NCBI RefSeq assembly: GCF_009649225.1
Contig: NZ_WJPP01000001.1
Span: 372,001-436,000 of the forward strand
Source: Spiribacter salilacus
Lineage (GTDB): Bacteria; Pseudomonadota; Gammaproteobacteria; Nitrococcales; Nitrococcaceae
DNA length: 64,000 nucleotides
Direction: 5' to 3'
The translations under genes and the position numbers were made by a program. The notes under the pieces were generated by a model that saw only the letters and a program-made list of their open reading frames with translations, did not search any database and was not told the origin of the DNA. Every line of letters begins with the position of its first letter. Position 1 is the first letter of the stretch. Shown piece after piece: positions 5,583 to 18,781 of this stretch.

Positions 5583-5773
5583 ACAAACCTGATCGTGCAC
5601 CGGGCGCAACATCATTGCTTATTTTTGCATTGGGATTGTTGCTATTTAGCTCACCACTCACGCAATGGTGGGCCGAACAAAATTACCCTTGGTTCGCACC
5701 TTTTGGTCTATGGCTTGCCTTAATTATCCTCATTGGCCTGTTTATTGGCCGTGGATCTCGCAATGAGCTTTAG
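5579..5773 (+). CDS. cbrX: CbrX-like small membrane protein
   Basis: A 64-residue protein with two predicted hydrophobic segments (about residues 12-25 and 42-57) separated by a short loop holding WWAEQNYPWFAPFG. It ends in a basic tail, GRGSRNEL. The start overlaps the gluQ stop by four bases and the end overlaps the cbrA start by 11 bases, so translation is probably coupled. The size, topology and position between gluQ and cbrA match the small CbrX frame described ahead of cbrA in Pseudomonas. Function is unsettled; a role in tuning CbrA translation or membrane insertion is an inference from the overlaps. Assignment rests on position more than on a diagnostic motif. Confidence 0.7.
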   Translation: MNKPDRAPGATSLLIFALGLLLFSSPLTQWWAEQNYPWFAPFGLWLALIILIGLFIGRGSRNEL

Positions 5774-8696
5774 CGTTGCGGCACTTTTCATTAGCGCAAC
5801 GGCTTATTTATCCGTTTTATTTCTCATTGCGCATGCCAGTGAGCGCGGCTGGATCCCCGCAAAAATTGTTCGACACCCCAGCGTTTATGTTCTCTCCCTT
5901 GGTGTTTATGCCACCAGCTGGAGCTATTATGGCAGTGTCGGCTTTGCCGAACGCTCTGGGCTTGCCTTCATTACCATTTATTTAGGGGTAACACTGGCAT
6001 TTGCACTAACGCCGATTTTACTCATGCCGCTTTTACGGCTAACCAGACGCCATCAGCTCACCTCAATTGCTGATCTATTTGCGTTTCGATTTAATAGCCA
6101 ATTTGCGGGCGTATTAGTCACCTTAATGATCCTAACCGGCAGCCTGCCCTATCTCGCGCTTCAAATCCGCGCTGTTGCCGAGTCTACGCAAGTACTAAGT
6201 GACCAATCACCCCCACACACAATTGCAATTGTGTTTTGTGTGATGGTGACGGTGTTTGCCATTATTTTTGGTGCAAGGCACGTTACTCCACGAGAAAAGC
6301 ATAGCGGGCTGGTTGCAGCGATTGCGTTTGAATCTCTGGTTAAAATCGGCGCCCTGGTGCTCATTGCCGTAGTGGCTGTCAAACTTGCCTTTGGCGGACT
6401 TGGAGGACTGGATAGTTGGCTGGCAGCCAATCCAGAGAAACTAACCAACTATTACTCGTCAGTATCAGGAGATAGCTGGACAGGGCTGCTCTTTCTTGCT
6501 TTTGCCGCGGCTTTTTTACTGCCACGCCAATTTCACATGCTGTTCACCGAAAATCTGCATAACGCAGGCTTACGAACAGCAAGCTGGGGCTTTCCATTGT
6601 TGCTATTAGTTCTGGCGGCAGGGATTCCGCCGGTACTCTGGGCAGGGCAAGCGTTAGAAATTGGAGGTTCCTCAGATTATTACGTTTTAGGCATTGCCCT
6701 TTTTTCTGAGTCTGCCGTGCTGGCTTTATTGGCCTATTTAGGCGGAATTTCGGCAGCCAGCGCCATGATCATTGTCTCTACGCTCGCTATTTCCTCGATG
6801 TGCCTGAACCATCTGGTTCTGCCAGTTGTGCGCATTACGCCCTACCAAGACCTCTACGCAATGCTGCGCTGGGCACGACGCGCACTGATTGCAGTCATTA
6901 TTGCCGCGGGTTATCTGTTTTATTTGAGTTTAGAGCGTACCGAGGGTCTGGTGTCTTGGGGGCTCATCTCTTTTCTTGCCATGGCGCAGCTGATCCCTGG
7001 CGTAATCGCCACCCTATTTTGGCCTGCGGCCAGCCGTAATGGATTTATTTCTGGCCTGCTTGCTGGCGGCGCAATTTGGGGCGCCGCCGCACTGCTTCCG
7101 GCACTCAGCACCTTTGGTCCCATTCATCTCGTGGGTGTTGATCTAGGTGCAACACAAACACCCACCCATTTTGCTACCCTCGCGTTTTGGTCGGTTACCG
7201 CTAATGCACTGATTTTTGTGGCCGTGTCGCTGTTTAGTCGTGGCTCACTGCGCGAGACTGAGGCTGCAGAGGCTTGTCACGATCTGAATACACGCGTACC
7301 TGAAGGCGGACTGCTCGCCAACTCCCCTAGTCAGTTCATCGATCAACTAGCCCCGGTAACGGGAACATCAGCCGCCAGCGCGGAAATTGAGCGTGCAATG
7401 GCTGATTTAGACTTGAGCTGGGAGGAAACAAGACCAGAGTACTTGCAGCAACTCCGCGAACAAGTGCAACGAAACCTATCCGGCATGATGGGTCCGATGC
7501 TCGCCCGGGACATCGTTGATCAATGCCTCCGGCTCGACACAGACACCCGCACTGCCCTGTCGCAAAACGTGCGACTGATTGAAGAGCGCCTCGAGCGACA
7601 TCGCAAAGGCTTCTATGGCCTTGCCGGCGAGCTCGACGCTCTTCGGCGCTATCATCGCCAGATCTTAGAAGATCTACCCCTCGGCGTGGTCGCGATAACC
7701 CCTAATAACCATATTGCCCGCTGGAACCCGGCTATGGAGCAGCTCACCGGCACCAGCGCCCCAAGAATTCTAGGAAGGCAGGTCAGTGAATTACAAACCC
7801 CGTGGGCTGATTTACTAACTGAGTTTGCCCATGAAGATGCCGCGCATGCCTATAAGCGTCATATCCAATTAGCGACTGGGGATCGTTGGCTTTCGCTGCA
7901 TAAGACCCTCATTTCAGGCGATGAGCGTAGTGACGAAGGCGATCGCCTTTTACTCATCGAGGATGTTACGGACGTTAATCGTCTTGAAGATGAGCTAACA
8001 CATAGTGAGCGACTCGCTTCTATTGGGCGGCTTGCCGCGGGTGTTGCGCACGAAATAGGTAATCCAATCACGGCAATTGCGTGCTTGGCTCAGGAGCTGC
8101 GCGAAGAGTTTGATCAAGCACGAGCCACTCAAATCCTCGAGCAAACAGACCGTATCAACCACATTGTTCAGACCCTCATCGGTTATGCGCATGCAGGCAC
8201 CACGCCAGAGCCGCGTCAGGCGCGGCCTGTTAACCTGCTAAGGGTTATTGAAGAGGCGAAGCGGGTTCTCCAACTCAACCCCAGCGCCCGTGATGTCGAG
8301 TTTGAGATTGCCGTTACACCAGAACTCAACGTGCTCGCAGAGCATCAACGGCTAGTTCAGGTGTTCGTGAATCTTCTGAGCAATGCGGTGGACGCCTGCG
8401 CAGAGGACCCTGCGGAAAAAGGCCGCATCAGCATTACCGCCAAAACCCATCGTGACCGTGTTGAAGTTCGAATTATTGATAACGGACATGGCATACCCCC
8501 TGCCATTGCAGACAAAGTGCTTGAGCCGTTTTTTACCACCAAACCACCAGGGCAAGGCACCGGGCTTGGGCTTGCATTAGCGTACAGTATCGTTCAAGAC
8601 TATGACGGAAGCCTGCAACTTCAGCCCCGACGTGGCAAAGTCGAAGGTACTGAAGTCCTGTTAAGACTGATCAAGGCAACCGAAATTGATGGCTGA
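5763..8696 (+). CDS. cbrA: Sensor histidine kinase with sodium/solute-symporter domain, CbrA-like
   Basis: A 977-residue membrane kinase. The first 500 or so residues form a sodium:solute symporter-like domain with many membrane segments (early landmark [14 protein letters not shown]). It is followed by a linker of the STAC type, a PAS domain (about 640-740, [20 protein letters not shown]), the phosphoacceptor motif [17 protein letters not shown] with histidine near 763, and an ATPase domain with DNGHGIPP and GTGLGLAL. CbrA senses carbon/nitrogen status in Pseudomonas and phosphorylates CbrB; its symporter domain has been linked to histidine. The ATG at 5763 (MSFSVAAL) was chosen over an upstream one because it begins the first membrane segment. 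It overlaps cbrB by eight bases. Confidence 0.92.
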
Positions 8697-10023
8697 AATA
8701 CTCATCATAGAAGATGAAACCGTCATTCGAGAAGCAGTAATGCGGCTATTGCAGCGTGATGGTCATACCGTGCACGGTGCTGAATCCGTAGAAGAGGCTC
8801 AGCAGCTCGGCCCGCTATCAGACTATGATCTAATCCTTGCCGATCATCGCCTGCCGGGGCACAACGGTAATCATATGATTAGTGCCGCCGCCTCTACACC
8901 AGTAATCATCATGACCAGCTATGCCACCGTAAAGTCAGCCGTTGATGCGATGCGCCAAGGCGCGGTGGATTACATCGCCAAGCCATTTGATAACGATGAG
9001 TTACTGTTAACCGTCAAGCGTGCCCTGCGCGAACATACCCTAAAGCGACAAAATGCTGCCCTTCGTGCTCATTTAGACGTCGAATATCCGGTTACCGGCA
9101 TTGTTGGTGAATGCCCGGCCATGATGAACGTGTTTGACCGGATCGCTCGCGTCGCCCCCACTGATACGACCGTGCTGATTTTAGGCGAATCGGGCACGGG
9201 TAAGGAATTGGTAGCTCGAGCCGTTCATGAGCAAAGTGAGCGTGCCGATGGGCCGCTAATTGCCGTCAATTGCGCGGCCATCCCCGACTCCTTATTAGAG
9301 GCCGAATTATTTGGGCACGAAAAAGGGGCATTCACCGGCGCGCATTCAGCGCGTGAAGGCCTCGTCGAAGCAGCGAATGGCGGTACGCTTTTTTTAGATG
9401 AGGTTGCCGAGCTGCCATTACCCGCGCAGGCTCGGCTGTTGCGTGTATTACAAGAGTCAGAGATTCGCCGGGTGGGGGCGTCACATTCTAAGCATATCGA
9501 TATTCGGTTAGTGGCCGCCACACACCGAGACCTTGATCAGCTTGTAGAAGCACAGGCTTTTCGAAACGATCTGTATTTTCGAATCAATGTCATGGAAATC
9601 GCACTACCTCCCCTACGCGAAAGGGGTGAAGATATCGCTGCGCTGGCCAAATTTCTGCTCGAAAAAGCCTGCCGCCGTCTCAATCGGCCTGCGATGCAAT
9701 TCACACCAGAGGCATTATCGCTCATTAATCAGTATTCATGGCCCGGTAACGTGCGTGAGCTAGAGAACCTCATTGAGCGCGCCGTCATCATGCTCGATGG
9801 CGGCGAAGTTACCGCGGAGCAGCTTGCCTTGCCAAGGCGAGAAAATAACGGACAGCAAACAACACCGGATCTATCCCTTGAAGCGTATTTTTGTAAATTT
9901 GTTCGAGAAAATGAAGGCGGCATGACCGAAACGGAGCTCGCAAAGCAGCTAGGCATTAGTCGCAAAGCACTCTGGGAGCGTCGACAACGGTTTGGACTTC
10001 AGCGTCGAGGACAAGCAGGATAG
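8689..10023 (+). CDS. cbrB: NtrC-family sigma-54 response regulator, CbrB-like
   Basis: A 444-residue response regulator. It has a receiver domain with acidic pocket ED (about residues 10-11), phosphoacceptor D52 in [10 protein letters not shown], and the switch lysine in AKPFD. The sigma-54 AAA+ domain follows with Walker [15 protein letters not shown] and Walker B FLDEVAE. A short C-terminal helix-turn-helix ([20 protein letters not shown]) binds DNA. It pairs with the adjacent CbrA and would activate sigma-54 promoters; a matching promoter with dyads lies 2.1 kb downstream at 12037-12130. The ATG at 8689 is preferred over the TTG codon before it. In Pseudomonas this protein drives genes for use of poor carbon sources and the CrcZ small RNA. 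Confidence 0.92.
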
Positions 10024-10074: not shown

Positions 10075-12012
10075 ATGTCAGCAGATAACGTTTATCCGGT
10101 TCCCCAAAATGTAGCTGATCATGCGCTGCTTAATCGCCAGCAGTACGACCAAATGTTTAAGCAGTCTTTAGCAGACCCCAATGCATTTTGGGCGGAACAG
10201 GCAGATCAATTTCTGACTTGGTTTAAAAAATGGGACACCGTCAATAATAGTGATCTGGCTAAAGGTCATATCGCTTGGTTTGAGGGTGGCCAATTAAACG
10301 TTAGCTATAACTGCATCGATCGTCACCTTGAGGCGCATGGCGATCGGACCGCGATCATTTGGGAAGGCGATACTCCCGGCGATACGCGGCACATCAGCTA
10401 TAAAGCGCTGCATGCCGAGGTCTGTCAGCTTGCCAATGCGCTCAAAGCACGTGGCGTTAAAAAAGGCGATCGAGTGGCTATCTACATGCCCATGATTCCT
10501 GAAGCGGCCGTTGCAATGCTCGCCTGCACGCGAATTGGCGCGGTGCATTCCATTGTTTTCGGCGGGTTTTCACCCCAAGCCCTGCGCGATCGCATCGAAG
10601 CTTCTGAATGTCAGGTTGTTATTACCGCTGACGAGGGGCTACGCGGCGGTAAGCCTGTGCCACTAAAAGAAAACGTTGAAAAGGCGATTGACGGTATTGC
10701 TGCCGTGCATACGGTTGTGACAGTAAAGCGCACGGGTAACCCAGTCAGCTGGAGCGAGCCTCGCGATGTGTGGTATCACGAAATTATTGATGCCGCTTCC
10801 ACCGAGTGTGAGCCCGAACCAATGGATGCAGAGGATCCGCTTTTTATCCTCTACACCTCAGGCTCCACCGGTAAACCCAAAGGCGTTTTGCACACCACCG
10901 GTGGCTATCTGCTACAAGCGGCGATGACGCATCGCTATGTCTTCGACTACCACGAGGGTGAGGTTTACTGGTGTACTGCCGATGTGGGCTGGGTCACCGG
11001 GCATAGCTACATTGTGTATGGCCCGTTGTGCAACGGCGCAACCACGTTGATTTTCGAGGGAATCCCCACCTACCCAGATGCCAGCCGCTTTTGGCAGGTT
11101 ATTGATGACCATCAGGTCAATATCTTCTACACCGCACCCACCGCCATCCGCTCTTTAATGGGTCAAGGCGACGAGCTGGTGAAAAAGACCTCTCGTCAAA
11201 GCCTGCGAATTCTTGGCTCGGTAGGCGAGCCGATTAACCCAGAGGCCTGGGAGTGGTACTACCGCGTGGTTGGTGATGAGCGTTGCCGCATCGTTGATAC
11301 GTGGTGGCAAACCGAGACCGGCGCCATCATGATCTCACCACTACCGGGTGCCATTGATTTAAAACCCGGCTCAGCCACTTTGCCCTTCTTCGGCGTGAAT
11401 TTAGAACTCGTTGATAACGACGGAAATGTGCTGGAAGGTGCGGTCGAGGGCAACCTCTGCATTACTCAGGCGTGGCCTAGCATGATGCGTACCATCTATG
11501 GCGATCATGAGCGGTTTATTAACACTTACTTAAGCACCTACGCCGGCAAATACTTTACCGGTGATGGGGCACGGCGCGACGAAGATGGGTACTACTGGAT
11601 TACAGGCCGCGTCGATGACGTGTTGAATGTATCGGGTCATCGTATGGGTACGGCGGAAATCGAAAGCGCGCTGGTCTTACATGACGCCGTTGCCGAAGCC
11701 GCCGTGGTGGGCTATCCGCATGACTTAAAAGGCCAAGGCATCTACTGCTATGTCACGCTAATGGGCGGCATTGAGCCCTCTGATGCTTTACAAAAAGAGC
11801 TGAGCGACCTGGTTAGAAAAGAAATCGGCCCCATTGCCAAACCGGATGTTATCCAGTGGGCGCCCGGGCTGCCTAAAACGCGGTCCGGCAAAATCATGCG
11901 CCGGATTCTGCGCAAGGTTGCCACCAATGAGCTCGATAGCCTTGGCGATACCAGTACCTTGGCTGATCCGAGTGTTGTTGACGATTTGATTAGCAATCGC
12001 GCGGGTCAGTAA
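10075..12012 (+). CDS. acs: Acetyl-CoA synthetase (AMP-forming)
   Basis: A full-length 645-residue acetate:CoA ligase that activates acetate through acetyl-AMP to acetyl-CoA in the cytoplasm. It shows the AMP-binding signature [11 protein letters not shown] (about residues 261-271), [22 protein letters not shown] with the hinge region, and the C-terminal [11 protein letters not shown] with K606, the lysine that acetylation inactivates in this family. A strong ribosome site (GGAGGAG) precedes the ATG. The gap from cbrB is only 51 bases with no evident terminator, so cbrAB-acs may be cotranscribed. It probably works with the aldehyde dehydrogenase upstream and the symporter downstream. Confidence 0.97.
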
Positions 12013-12036
12013 AAATGAGGCCAGATGACCCCGGTA

Positions 12037-12075
12037 GTTACTAAAAGTAACACCGGGGCATTACCTTTAGTAACA
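12037..12075 (+). promoter_or_regulatory. Two tandem dyads, probable enhancer sites (CbrB or another activator)
   Basis: GTTACTAAAAGTAACA (12037-12052) and ATTACCTTTAGTAACA (12060-12075) are two copies of the pattern RTTAC-N5-GTAACA spaced 23 bp apart, about two helical turns. They lie about 97 and 74 bases upstream of the start predicted from the sigma-54 promoter at 12115-12130. The half-site GTAACA resembles what I recall for CbrB sites, although the spacing between half-sites there is wider. The first dyad is also nested in an imperfect CCCCGGT/ACCGGGG hairpin that could act in the 3' end of acs mRNA. Confidence 0.55.
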
Positions 12076-12114
12076 AAAAACGTGCCGATTGTCGGATAAC
12101 ACCCGGAATACGGG

Positions 12115-12130
12115 CGGCACGAATTTTGCA
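12115..12130 (+). promoter_or_regulatory. Sigma-54 (-24/-12) promoter of the symporter operon
   Basis: CGGCACGAATTTTGCA matches the sigma-54 consensus YGGCACG-N4-TTGCW at every defined position, with GG at 12116-12117 and GC at 12128-12129. Transcription would begin near 12141 and give a leader of about 93 bases before the ATG at 12234. Two dyads upstream and a sigma-54 activator gene (cbrB) nearby support it. Confidence 0.75.
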
Positions 12131-12142
12131 GGTTTATGACAA

Positions 12143-12233: not shown

Positions 12234-12500
12234 ATGGCTTCATCTAAAGAAGAAGCTGCAATGGCCTACTGGAAAGAAAACGTCAGGCTACTGATCACGT
12301 TGTTGATCATTTGGTTTGTTGTTTCTTTTGGCCTAGGCATCATTTTGGCACCGGTACTCAATAGCATCGAGATTGCGGGTTACCCACTGGGCTTTTGGTT
12401 TGCTCAGCAGGGCGCCATCTACGCATTCATCGTCCTCATTTTCGTCTATGTGTTCAAAATGAACGCGTTAGACCGAAAATATGACGTTCACGAAGAGTAA
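12234..12500 (+). CDS. DUF4212 small subunit of a sodium:solute symporter
   Basis: An 88-residue membrane protein with two membrane spans (about residues 20-45 and 55-78) and the family pattern of an N-terminal YWKENVRLL and the loop PLGFWFAQQGAIYAF. DUF4212 proteins are the small partner of VC_2705-type sodium:solute symporters and are encoded just upstream of the large subunit, as here with a 14-base gap. A strong ribosome site (GGAGGAG) lies upstream of the ATG. The protein is thought to be needed for assembly or function of the large subunit. The operon is transcribed from the sigma-54 promoter at 12115. Confidence 0.9.
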   Translation: MASSKEEAAMAYWKENVRLLITLLIIWFVVSFGLGIILAPVLNSIEIAGYPLGFWFAQQGAIYAFIVLIFVYVFKMNALDRKYDVHEE

Positions 12501-12514
12501 CGGGGGCAGTCATA

Positions 12515-14269
12515 ATGAGTCTTACATTAACTACTTATTTAATCGTTGGCGCGACCTTTGCGCTATATATCGGTATTGCCATCTGGGCTCGAGCCGGCAG
12601 TACTGGTGAGTTCTACGTTGCCGGCAAAGGTGTTAACCCCGTTGCTAATGGTATGGCAACAGCGGCCGACTGGATGTCGGCAGCATCATTTATCTCCATG
12701 GCGGGGCTTATTGCCTTTCTTGGATATGATGCTTCGGTGTATCTCATGGGCTGGACAGGTGGCTATGTGCTGCTTGCATTGCTCCTTGCTCCGTACCTGC
12801 GGAAGTTCGGTAAGTTCACGGTTCCCGAGTTTATCGGCGATCGGTTCTATTCAAAGCCGGCTCGAGTGATTGCGGTTATCTCTTTGTTGGTTGCCTCCAT
12901 CACCTACGTTATTGGTCAGATGCGGGGTATCGGGGTTGCCTTCTCACGGTTCCTCGAAACCAGCTATGAGATTGGCCTGTATTCCGGCATGACCATCGTG
13001 TTCATCTACGCGGTGTTTGGCGGTATGAAGGGCATCACTTACACACAGATCGCGCAGTACTGCATCATGATCTTTGCGTATACGATTCCGGCCATCTTCA
13101 TTTCGTTGACCATTACCGGACAGCCACTGCCACAGTTAGGCTTAGGCTCAACGGTTGCTCAGGGTGGTTACCTGCTCGATACGCTAGACAACATTCTGGT
13201 TGATCTTGGGTTCTCGCAGTACACCGCCATGAAGGGCACAACACTCAACATGTTCTTTTTGACCATGTCGTTGATGATCGGTACCGCGGGCCTGCCCCAC
13301 GTTATCGTGCGCTTCTTTACGGTTCCGCGGGTGCGTGATGCGCGTTTGTCTGCGGGCTGGGCCTTGGTCTTTATCGCTATTCTGTACACCACGGCTCCAG
13401 CTGTGGGTGCAATGTCCTTCTACAACCTAATTAACACCGTACAACCCGGTGAAATTGGCGCAGAAGAAGGCAACTTGGCGTATGACGATGTGCCAGAGTG
13501 GTTCTCTCGTTGGGAAGAAACCGGCTTGCTCGGCTTCGAAGATAAAAACAACGATGGCCGCATCCAGTACTACAACGATGGTAACGAAGCGTTTGCCGCT
13601 ACCGCTGCCGAGTATGGCTGGGAAGGCAATGAGCTGACGGTTGACCGGGATATTATGGTAATGGCCAACCCAGAAATCGCACAGCTGCCGAACTGGGTCA
13701 TTGCACTAACCGTAGCGGGTGGCTTAGCAGCCGCATTGTCTACGGCGGCAGGCCTGTTAATGGCCATATCGTCGGCAATCTCGCATGACCTGATCAAAGG
13801 GGTAATAAACCCAGGTATCAGCGAAAAAGGCGAGCTTCTAGCCGCACGTATAGCCATGGCAGGTGCCATTGTCATTGCCGGTTACTTGGGCTTGAATCCA
13901 CCCGGATTTGCGGCTCAGGTGGTTGCGTTGGCCTTCGGCTTGGCCGCCTCGTCTCTGTTCCCGGTACTGATGCTTGGCATCTTTAACCGGCGCATGAACA
14001 GCGCAGGCGCAATGGCTGGCATGTTGGCAGGCTTGAGCTTCACGCTCATTTACGTGTTCATCTTCAAGGGCTGGTTCTTTATTCCAGGAACCAACATGCT
14101 TGATGATGTGCCAGCCAACTGGCTCTTTGGAATCGGACCGCAATCCATCGGCGCAGTGGGTGCCATTGTTAACGTGATCGCAGCAACGATTGTGTCACGT
14201 ATGACTGCACCACCACCGGTTGAAATCCAAGAGCTTGTAGAAAGCATCCGAGTGCCACGCGCAGGTTAA
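12515..14269 (+). CDS. Sodium:solute symporter, VC_2705 family (acetate-linked)
   Basis: A 584-residue transporter of the SSSF superfamily with at least 12 predicted membrane spans, in the VC_2705 subfamily that pairs with DUF4212. Landmarks are GEFYVAGKGVNPVANGMATAAD near the N-terminus, GLPHVIVRFFTVP in the middle, and AGGLAAALSTAAGLLMAISSAISHD. An extra hydrophilic loop of about 80 residues (roughly 310-395) contains DKNNDGRI (343-350), which looks like an EF-hand calcium loop. The neighbours acs, cbrAB and the DUF294 protein suggest monocarboxylate (acetate, propionate, pyruvate) uptake driven by sodium. The substrate is inferred from context; ActP is a more distant relative. Confidence 0.9.
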   Translation: MSLTLTTYLIVGATFALYIGIAIWARAGSTGEFYVAGKGVNPVANGMATAADWMSAASFISMAGLIAFLGYDASVYLMGWTGGYVLLALLLAPYLRKFGKFTVPEFIGDRFYSKPARVIAVISLLVASITYVIGQMRGIGVAFSRFLETSYEIGLYSGMTIVFIYAVFGGMKGITYTQIAQYCIMIFAYTIPAIFISLTITGQPLPQLGLGSTVAQGGYLLDTLDNILVDLGFSQYTAMKGTTLNMFFLTMSLMIGTAGLPHVIVRFFTVPRVRDARLSAGWALVFIAILYTTAPAVGAMSFYNLINTVQPGEIGAEEGNLAYDDVPEWFSRWEETGLLGFEDKNNDGRIQYYNDGNEAFAATAAEYGWEGNELTVDRDIMVMANPEIAQLPNWVIALTVAGGLAAALSTAAGLLMAISSAISHDLIKGVINPGISEKGELLAARIAMAGAIVIAGYLGLNPPGFAAQVVALAFGLAASSLFPVLMLGIFNRRMNSAGAMAGMLAGLSFTLIYVFIFKGWFFIPGTNMLDDVPANWLFGIGPQSIGAVGAIVNVIAATIVSRMTAPPPVEIQELVESIRVPRAG

Positions 14270-16738: not shown

Positions 16739-18781
16739 ATGCGGGCGTTTCGTTTACCGAGATTACGCAAACGCCTTTGGATTGCGGCGGCTGGAGCGGC
16801 AGTTCTTCAAGGCAGTGCTGTCATTGGCTTTGGCCTCGGCGGCCCAGCAACTGTGGCTGTGGCGGTTGCGGTAGCACTCCTCACCCTTTTGCTAGCCTTA
16901 CTGTACGATTTAAAGCTCACACGCCCGCTTGCCGCAACGAGCCGCGGCGCGGAAATCATCGCTAAAACTAACCCCGGGCATCAACTTGAGCTTAGCCAAG
17001 GACATTGGCTCGAACGACTCCCTGAGACGATTGAAAATCTGGGAGCAAACGTTGCCCGAACCCGTCATGAAATGGAAGAGGCTGCCACCAGCTGGAATGT
17101 TCAAATAGAGGCGCGACGCGCAAGGTTAGAAACAATTTTACGGGAGATTCGTGAAGGCGTTTTAGTCTGCGATGATAACGGACGTATCGTCCTTTATAAT
17201 CGTGCCGCTCGACAATTACTAGAAGAAGAGCCCGCGCTTGGTTTGGGCCGCAATATCAATGAAGTCCTTGATGAAGGCCCCCTTCGACACACCCTCAACC
17301 TACTCAGCACAGATGCTGAATTGGTTTGCGCAACGCGCAGTGGAGCGCGTTTAGTTCGTTGTCGCCTCGCCAAACTGCAAACTGACGATCCGGACACCTC
17401 CGGGTTTGTTATGACGCTGCAAGACGTATCGGAGGAGACTCGTGAGGCCTTACGCAGAGAACAGGCACTACGTCGCTCTGTGGAGGCCTTCCGTAATCCT
17501 TTAACAAGCCTTGCTGCGGCAACTCATAGCTTGACCCTTGCGCAGCAAGAGAATATTAAAGATGCCGCCCAGCGCTTTACCGCCATTATTAATGAGGAAA
17601 GCACCCGGCTTGCCGATCATTTCTCTCAACTGTCAAAAGAAACTGGCGCCATGATGACAGACACTTGGCGCCTTGAAGATGTGCATTTAGGCAGCCTAAT
17701 CGATGGCATTCGTGAGCGGCAAAAAACAGGCCTGCCACGCATTCAGGCCAGTGCCGATGTTTGGATATCTGCTGAGCCCTATCTCATTTCTCAAGTCATT
17801 GAAGCGCTTTTAAGACGCTTGCATGAAGAACTTGGCGTAGCCGCACTTGCCCTAATGGGGCGTGAGGAAGGCAGTATGGTCTACATGGACCTGACATGGT
17901 CGGGTGATGTTGCTGCAGCCGAACAACTCGATGAATGGCTCAACGATGGGCTGGAAGATGTGGGTGGCACGGTCACGCTAAGAGAGATACTCGATCGTCA
18001 TGGCACCACAGCCTGGAGTCAACCCGATGTATCGCGTTTTGGCCGCGCTCTACTCCGGCTACCTCTCCCCGGCGCACCAAAGAAGGCAACCCTCGCACCC
18101 GTCATACCCGCACGGCCAGAGTATTACGACTTTGCCATCGAAGAGCAGACCAAGCAGCTTGATCCGCGGGCTGAAGAAACCTTGGAAAATTTGGACTATA
18201 TCGTCTTTGACTGCGAAACAACGGGCCTTGAGCCCAGCCGAGGGGACGAAATTGTCTCTATCGGGGCGGTCCGAATTCATGGCGGGCAAGTCATGCATGG
18301 CGAGACGTTTGAACTACTGGCCAATCCAGGGCGTGATATTCCTGCGCTGGCCACTAGTATTCACGGTATCCGTAACGAAGACATTATTGATGCGCCGCCT
18401 GTAGAGGAGGCTGTCCGCCGCTTTCATGCCTTTGCGGGCAATGCCGTTTTGGTTGGCTTTAATATCGCGTTTGATATGCGGTTTCTAAAGCTTAAACAGC
18501 GAATCAGCGGGGTCGTTTTTGATCATACAACGCTCGATGCGCTGCTATTATCCATACTGCTTCATGACCATACCGGTGAGCATACGATGGAAAGTGTCGC
18601 GCAACGCCTAGGCGTTGGTGTTGGGGGGCGGCATACCGCGCTGGGCGATTCGCTAACCACCGCCGAGATATTTGTGCGCCTGCTTGAGTTACTCCCGGCT
18701 AATGGCATTCAAACGCTAGATAACGCCGTAGCAGCTCAAGAAAAGATGATTGAGTTTAGAAGGCAACAGCGGGCCTTTTAA
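16739..18781 (+). CDS. Membrane-PAS-pseudokinase fused to a DEDDh 3'-5' exonuclease
   Basis: A 680-residue protein with an unusual build. Two membrane spans lie at about residues 14-34 and 38-60, then a helical linker, a PAS domain (about 130-230, ILREIREGVLVCDDNGRIVLYNRAA), and a kinase-like dimerisation segment AFRNPLTSL (about 247) in which the usual histidine of HELRTPL is glutamate. I see no N, G1 or G2 ATP-binding boxes after it. The C-terminal 200 residues are a DnaQ-type exonuclease with all DEDDh residues: D490 and E492 in FDCETTG, an aspartate near 578 in FNIAFDMRF, and H631/D636 in RHTALGD. It probably degrades single-stranded nucleic acid or oligonucleotides under control of a membrane sensor. 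Target and signal are unknown. Confidence 0.85.
   Translation: MRAFRLPRLRKRLWIAAAGAAVLQGSAVIGFGLGGPATVAVAVAVALLTLLLALLYDLKLTRPLAATSRGAEIIAKTNPGHQLELSQGHWLERLPETIENLGANVARTRHEMEEAATSWNVQIEARRARLETILREIREGVLVCDDNGRIVLYNRAARQLLEEEPALGLGRNINEVLDEGPLRHTLNLLSTDAELVCATRSGARLVRCRLAKLQTDDPDTSGFVMTLQDVSEETREALRREQALRRSVEAFRNPLTSLAAATHSLTLAQQENIKDAAQRFTAIINEESTRLADHFSQLSKETGAMMTDTWRLEDVHLGSLIDGIRERQKTGLPRIQASADVWISAEPYLISQVIEALLRRLHEELGVAALALMGREEGSMVYMDLTWSGDVAAAEQLDEWLNDGLEDVGGTVTLREILDRHGTTAWSQPDVSRFGRALLRLPLPGAPKKATLAPVIPARPEYYDFAIEEQTKQLDPRAEETLENLDYIVFDCETTGLEPSRGDEIVSIGAVRIHGGQVMHGETFELLANPGRDIPALATSIHGIRNEDIIDAPPVEEAVRRFHAFAGNAVLVGFNIAFDMRFLKLKQRISGVVFDHTTLDALLLSILLHDHTGEHTMESVAQRLGVGVGGRHTALGDSLTTAEIFVRLLELLPANGIQTLDNAVAAQEKMIEFRRQQRAF

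Follow-up and report, generated by a model that had tools for sequence, protein, structure and literature searches.

Does the two-component system encoded upstream of acs in Spiribacter salilacus switch on the symporter genes that follow acs? In the 64,000-nucleotide stretch analysed here (the window), the order around the acs-DUF4212 gap is exaC, DUF779, an aminotransferase gene (reverse strand), gluQ, cbrA, cbrB, acs, DUF4212, a VC_2705-type symporter gene and a DUF294/CBS gene (reverse strand), with gluQ and the aminotransferase named by eye (Table 1). The first-pass annotation had proposed that cbrAB directly controls this locus through a sigma-54 promoter and two dyads in the gap. This hypothesis is well supported by the comparison of related genomes, and the finding appears to be larger than was claimed, namely a CbrAB acetate-assimilation regulon with canonical palindromic operators. 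It is very likely that the site is a genuine switch with which CbrA/CbrB turns on an acetate-type transporter. In the parts consulted of the literature on CbrAB and acs, CbrB and Spiribacter, and crcZ outside Pseudomonas, no publication deals with this locus.

Table 1. Features of the locus and its surroundings, in window positions
Feature	Position	Strand	Evidence or remark
AcoR-like sigma-54-type activator (by eye)	1 to ~1450 (estimated)	-	Crosses left edge
cbrA, SLC5-STAC-PAS-histidine kinase without C-terminal REC	5733..8696	+	Pfam HisKA, HATPase_c, PAS
cbrB, NtrC-type REC-AAA+-HTH, proposed activator	8689..10023	+	Pfam Response_reg, Sigma54_activat
acs, acetate--CoA ligase	10075..12012	+	TIGR02188 equivalog, 1045.6 bits against cut-off 725
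Hairpin enclosing dyad A, directly after acs stop	12029..12058	+	Folding
Distal dyad A GTTACTAAAAGTAAC, GTTAC-N5-GTAAC, proposed CbrB operator	12037-12051	+	A comes next
Proximal dyad B ATTACCTTTAGTAAC, ATTAC-N5-GTAAC, proposed CbrB operator	12060-12074	+	A comes next
Sigma-54 -24/-12 element CGGCACGAATTTTGCA	12115-12130	+	First base deviates from TGGCACGNNNNTTGCA, the only mismatch; GG-N10-GC spacing kept
DUF4212 small symporter subunit	12234..12497	+	PF13937, TIGR03647; closely preceded by a GGAGGA ribosome site (by eye)
VC_2705-family sodium/solute symporter, proposed target	12515..14269	+	TIGR03648, 836 bits against cut-off 321
Single protein with PAS and RNase T exonuclease domains	16739-18781		

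The identity of the two regulators was read from domains and reading frames, which give the CbrAB layout: an SLC5-STAC-PAS-kinase without a C-terminal REC together with an NtrC-type regulator. Among the best 25 NCBIfam families for each protein there is no CbrA or CbrB model. The cbrA gene follows gluQ, which is also the gene order of Pseudomonas, and by eye its true start is probably the ATG at 5760. Pfam finds no REC in CbrA and matches neither SLC5 nor STAC; residues 10-599 align to the solved histidine kinase 10ed_A (E 9.6e-162), with 199 of 416 residues identical in the compared part. The entry code 10ed appears once in a CbrA structure preprint (PMC13022988). The preprint names 11 residues in the ligand pocket or nearby, of which five are identical in the window's CbrA (Y51, W55, Y75, K196 and F406), with S53T and A56S conservative and C74I, F248A, S251A and H257R different; with five identities out of 11, histidine is uncertain as the signal of this CbrA.

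CbrB is 58% identical to the Stutzerimonas xanthomarina (G059) ortholog over residues 1-441. The HTH motif TETELA..LGISRK.LWERRQR is common to both, and a count by eye gives four differences in 24 positions between the HTH of the window (TETELA...RRQRFG) and that of Stutzerimonas. No crcZ stands beside cbrB, its place being taken by acs, and Rfam found no CrcZ in the 64-kb window. The window genome (2.24 Mb, in a group of small genomes) encodes rpoN (Sigma54_DBD, E 1.2e-69). The AcoR-like gene at the left edge adjoins exaC and DUF779; neither of the latter two has a match in G002 within the 8.8-kb upstream stretch read.

The gap between the acs stop (ending at 12012) and the DUF4212 ATG (12234) contains both TTAC-N5-GTAA dyads exactly where they had been reported, offset by 23 bp (22-24 bp in family relatives). 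They had been placed on one face of the helix, which is only approximate because 23 bp is 2.2 helical turns. The sigma-54 site had been said to fit the consensus completely; its spacing does, but its first base does not. Taking the predicted start near 12141, 12 bases past the -12 GC, the dyad centres lie at about -97 and -74. The -24/-12 site begins 55 bases past the start of the proximal dyad in the window and about 65-130 bases past it in relatives. According to the parts consulted of the literature, IHF assists CbrB in P. putida; the IHF consensus (≤1 mismatch) is absent from the window gap and occurs once in G017, twice in G027 and once in G004.

Taken from the window alone, these sites constitute modest evidence, and it is their conservation that makes the case. 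Sigma-54 matches with up to two mismatches are at chance level across the window (11 found, 10.55 expected), the element in the gap being the only one with a single mismatch. Dyads with up to one mismatch number three against 0.86 expected, a count reached in 6 of 100 shuffles. Within the gap, none of 1000 dinucleotide shuffles reached the observed dyad and none of 1000 the sigma-54 match. We also scanned 54 genomes of the order for the dyad followed by N50-80 and an exact GCAC-N5-TTGC. The combined pattern occurs in six of them, once each and always upstream of DUF4212, so that no second target was found by this pattern across the 54 genomes; a reversed-pattern control gave 0 in all of them. 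The dyad alone (≤1 mismatch) is found at 43 places in the window's own genome and its reversed-pattern control at 119, and thus the dyad alone predicts no regulon.

The alignment of orthologous gaps that had been suggested as a check shows that, within the window's family, both the dyads and the -24/-12 element have been conserved and that they track cbrB. A dyad (≤1 mismatch) and a sigma-54 candidate precede the symporter in all 10 family genomes with a full-length cbrB and a readable gap (G000, the window genome, with G005, G006, G007, G009, G010, G011, G015, G016 and G017). Neither is found in any of the five family genomes without cbrB (G001, G002, G012, G013 and G018), where no dyad comes closer than 4 mismatches and the closest sigma-54 sites have 5-8. 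By arithmetic, this division is one in 3003, a figure that ignores the kinship of these related genomes. A second element at 22-24 bp (at least a GTTAC half-site or a degenerate dyad) is found in nine of the 10 cbrB-bearing genomes, G016 being the exception. The sigma-54 site is weak in G005 (p 0.066) and in G016, where a well-placed site has 3 mismatches. All family genomes compared keep rpoN, including those without cbrB, and so does G024, a genome of another family with no cbrB match, no sigma-54 site and a best dyad with 2 mismatches (p 0.038). For G018 and G024, absence of cbrB means no match at E 1e-100. In G003 and G008 cbrB is present and DUF4212 has no match; the DUF4212 loci of G025, G026, G036, G038 and G051 and the second copy of G033 were left out. 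Gene order is kept across the family stretches read, except in G016, where the symporter and acs are on different contigs.

In four of the genomes without cbrB (G001, G002, G012 and G013), acs comes directly after gluQ. On a tree of Acs and symporter from 17 genomes, these four group together (support 98) as the sister group of two genomes in which none of these elements has been lost (support 94), and G018 stands apart; several other inner nodes are weak (30-69). From the separate position of G018 we conclude that full loss occurred twice independently, the state without cbrB having arisen at least twice in the family. The family is thus a natural experiment in which the trans-factor and the cis-site vanish together. 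Direct control by cbrAB is thereby supported by those of its predictions that can be tested in sequence, conservation in the family and tracking of cbrB.

We consider it likely, with good confidence, that the site is a sigma-54 promoter of the DUF4212-symporter pair, activated directly by CbrB as the partner of the upstream CbrA. NtrC enhancers have the same layout as the window, a -24/-12 promoter preceded by a tandem pair of 17-bp palindromes whose 6-bp arms flank an N5 spacer, but their half-site sequence is different. From knowledge of this activator family, active CbrB would bind both palindromes, (T)GTTAC-N5-GTAAC(A), each 17 bp long and set 22-24 bp apart in tandem, and oligomerise, and its AAA+ domain would open the RpoN-polymerase complex at the -24/-12 site.

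It was considered whether some other sigma-54-type activator occupies the dyads, cbrB being a mere neighbour. There are four other clear Sigma54_activat matches in the window genome (NtrC-like, AcoR-like and two response regulators, names by eye), and an enhancer protein may be encoded anywhere. However, the NtrC-like protein has an ortholog in all five dyad-less family genomes, and orthologs of the remaining three are each found in three or more of these genomes, as read in the loci of 30 matches and with no claim on single absences. The half-site is moreover the published CbrB half-site, the HTH is nearly that of the Pseudomonas relative, and in 17 of 19 gaps cbrB is immediately followed by the same dyads. 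On this presence and absence among the family genomes the other activators were rejected as dyad binders, and we regard the explanation as unlikely. The first-pass annotation had left the choice between a diverged site and another activator; given those orthologs in dyad-less genomes and the HTH, CbrB is the best candidate.

The palindromes could also be a terminator or 3' hairpin of acs and no operator, as dyad A lies inside the hairpin right after the acs stop. By eye, no T-tract follows this hairpin. In most relatives (G006 is an exception) the dyads are preceded by a distinct GC-rich hairpin, and genomes without dyads also retain one; dyads stand before DUF4212 in G030 without acs in the 19 kb read and in G027 with acs in the opposite direction. 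The explanation was dropped because of the dyads of G030 and G027 and the hairpins of dyad-less genomes, and we consider it very unlikely. The window hairpin is probably the 3' end of acs, separate from the operator. A GC-rich hairpin after acs was seen in most family genomes folded, including the dyad-less G001, G002, G012 and G013.

Control by CbrB seems to extend to acs itself. In the wider order, acs comes after cbrB in 28 of the 30 cbrB loci read, the exceptions being L052, with a DUF294 match in its place, and L060, which ends too soon. A dyad with up to one mismatch is present in 17 of 19 cbrB-acs gaps longer than 200 bases (0.1 expected), a sigma-54 site with up to three mismatches in 15 (1.73 expected) and the two together in 14 (0.01 expected); the gaps without a dyad are those of G029 and G031. 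This count excludes genus g1 (gap about 50-60 bases), L052, L060 and ten cbrB genomes without a locus. Thus, based on the dyads and sigma-54 sites in these long gaps, acs is apparently an ancestral CbrB target. In the window's genus the cbrB-acs gap is about 50-60 bases, with a single perfect dyad in G009 and G011. In the window's own 51-base gap no dyad or sigma-54 match was seen, these being the promoter features scanned. The short gap of the window agrees with the earlier suggestion that acs is read from the cbrAB transcript; across the wider order, however, acs is preceded by a CbrB-type promoter of its own.

The symporter loci are less uniform outside the family. There, 12 of the 14 cbrB-bearing genomes read have no dyad (≤1 mismatch) upstream of DUF4212, and in 11 of these 12 the DUF4212 pair comes after a DUF294 gene, not acs; the twelve loci (L023-L034) were left out of the shuffle test of gaps. 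The two with dyads before DUF4212 are G027 and G030, and G027 has no well-placed sigma-54 site. The likely ancestral layout in the order is cbrA-cbrB-[dyads + sigma-54]-acs. The symporter of the window's family stands after acs behind a second such promoter, and in the window's genus the gap before acs has shrunk, leaving the promoter before the symporter. From the ancestral layout and the second promoter it would follow that CbrAB controls assimilation of acetate or a similar short acid. In our best reading, CbrB would activate acs, the symporter or both directly via NtrC-like palindromes.

One family genome, G004 (a single MAG, 86% complete), carries a cbrB frame (L199:10070-10597, reverse strand) in which an intact REC is joined in frame to an intact HTH and the AAA+ domain is missing, beside an apparently full-length cbrA. 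Its gap keeps one perfect dyad, and its best sigma-54 match has 4 mismatches, no better than shuffles (p 0.415). Such a pattern would be expected of an HTH that recognises the dyad and an AAA+ domain that acts at the -24/-12 site, and G004 would thus separate the DNA-binding part from the sigma-54-activating part. Differences from the window at the three codon positions are 33/30/77 in REC and 12/11/28 in HTH, mostly third positions as under selection, and much of this history may predate the deletion. A search of the G004 gap for a sigma-70 replacement gave weak matches only, the best with 7 of 12. The G004 protein is possibly a sigma-54 activator turned plain response regulator.

The CbrAB system of Pseudomonas shares with the window the orthologous SLC5-STAC-PAS kinase and NtrC-type regulator, the near-identical HTH, a sigma-54 promoter, GTTAC/GTAAC half-sites, reverse half-sites about 22 bp apart and a target beside cbrB. 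It differs in that the target beside cbrB is the crcZ RNA, whereas the window has N5 palindromes and acs and the symporter as proposed targets. In Stutzerimonas the gene after cbrB is CrcZ by Rfam (294.6 bits), and downstream of cbrB there are GTTAC, GTAAC and GTAAC at 27, 47 and 69 bases and a -24/-12 site at 149, with the same 22-bp step between the reverse half-sites. In the parts of the sources consulted, the CbrB target consensus is TGTTAC-N12-14-GTAACA-N15-19-GTAACA, non-palindromic (PMC8871633), and P. putida CbrB binds as a monomer to non-palindromic subsites (PMC6296734). The likeness of the GTAACA half-site to that of CbrB is borne out by this consensus. The N5 spacing, said to differ from known sites, departs from it in part: GTAACA-N17-GTAACA falls within the published R1-N15-19-R2, but F1-R1 is N5 and not N12-14.

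These palindromes suggest that monomeric, non-palindromic binding is not family-wide, or that the second half-sites decayed in P. putida; a nearly identical HTH with ordinary palindromes bears on the oddity of that binding. A 2022 review, in the part consulted, calls CbrAB unique to Pseudomonadaceae, and the present locus extends the system beyond that limit, with other targets. A broader reading makes CbrAB a dedicated acetate switch acting via NtrC-like palindromes at acs and the symporter, the global role in Pseudomonas, centred on crcZ and on non-palindromic sites, a derived rewiring of the same HTH, and G004 a case midway through a sigma-factor switch, with the operator kept and the sigma-54 promoter decayed; our judgement of it is evenly balanced. 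Read by eye, the DNA downstream of cbrB in L230-L233 (Halomonas, Marinobacter, Oleibacter, Vreelandella) contains a sigma-54 site, GTTAC/GTAAC half-sites and AANAANAA-rich stretches; crcZ-like RNAs are likely there, and Rfam CrcZ at the gathering score gave no match in L230, L231 and L233.

The locus would also place CbrAB in acetate use outside Pseudomonas. The identity of Acs is certain by family (TIGR02188). The usual acetate kinase is CrbS. With a CrbS-like kinase from G030 as query, identified by eye and partly read, none of the 12 genus genomes searched gave a match at E 1e-60; G017, G026 and G032 do have the kinase. Because of the Acs assignment and the lack of a CrbS match in the genus, an acetate-like substrate of the symporter, based on its neighbourhood and family name, is likely. 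Two other systems join an SLC5-STAC kinase to such targets. CrbS/R (MxtR/ErdR) controls acetyl-CoA synthetase and an acetate symporter in Pseudomonas and Vibrio; in the sources consulted in part, CrbS has a C-terminal REC and CrbR is LuxR-type and uses the ACTU motif, whereas the partner in the window is NtrC-type with sigma-54. According to similarly partial sources, RpuS/R of Sinorhizobium activates the adjoining monocarboxylate symporter gene mctP, but it does so for pyruvate, with an imperfect direct repeat and in another class. It is most improbable that CrbR or another LuxR-type regulator uses the dyads together with an ordinary sigma-70 promoter. CrbR governs acs and actP in Pseudomonas via an inverted repeat, the ACTU motif, but in the sources as consulted the ACTU examples centre on GAC-N4-GTC or similar and lie beside putative RpoD promoters; compared by eye, the TTAC-N5-GTAA dyads do not fit them, and the sigma-54 element is conserved. 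CrbR was rejected on this mismatch of motifs and on the lack of a CrbS match in the 12 genus genomes.

Two further observations concern other genes. Among 274 genomes of the class searched for AAA-less CbrB relatives, 11 had a match and only G125, a small genome of another family, had a short frame. It encodes a 171-aa REC-HTH protein (L238:1480-1995, forward strand), 38% identical to the AAA-less CbrB, and adjoins a gene for a 466-aa histidine kinase in which no SLC5 was seen by eye. In most family stretches read, the window gene for a protein with both PAS and RNase T exonuclease domains is conserved as a neighbour of the symporter locus.
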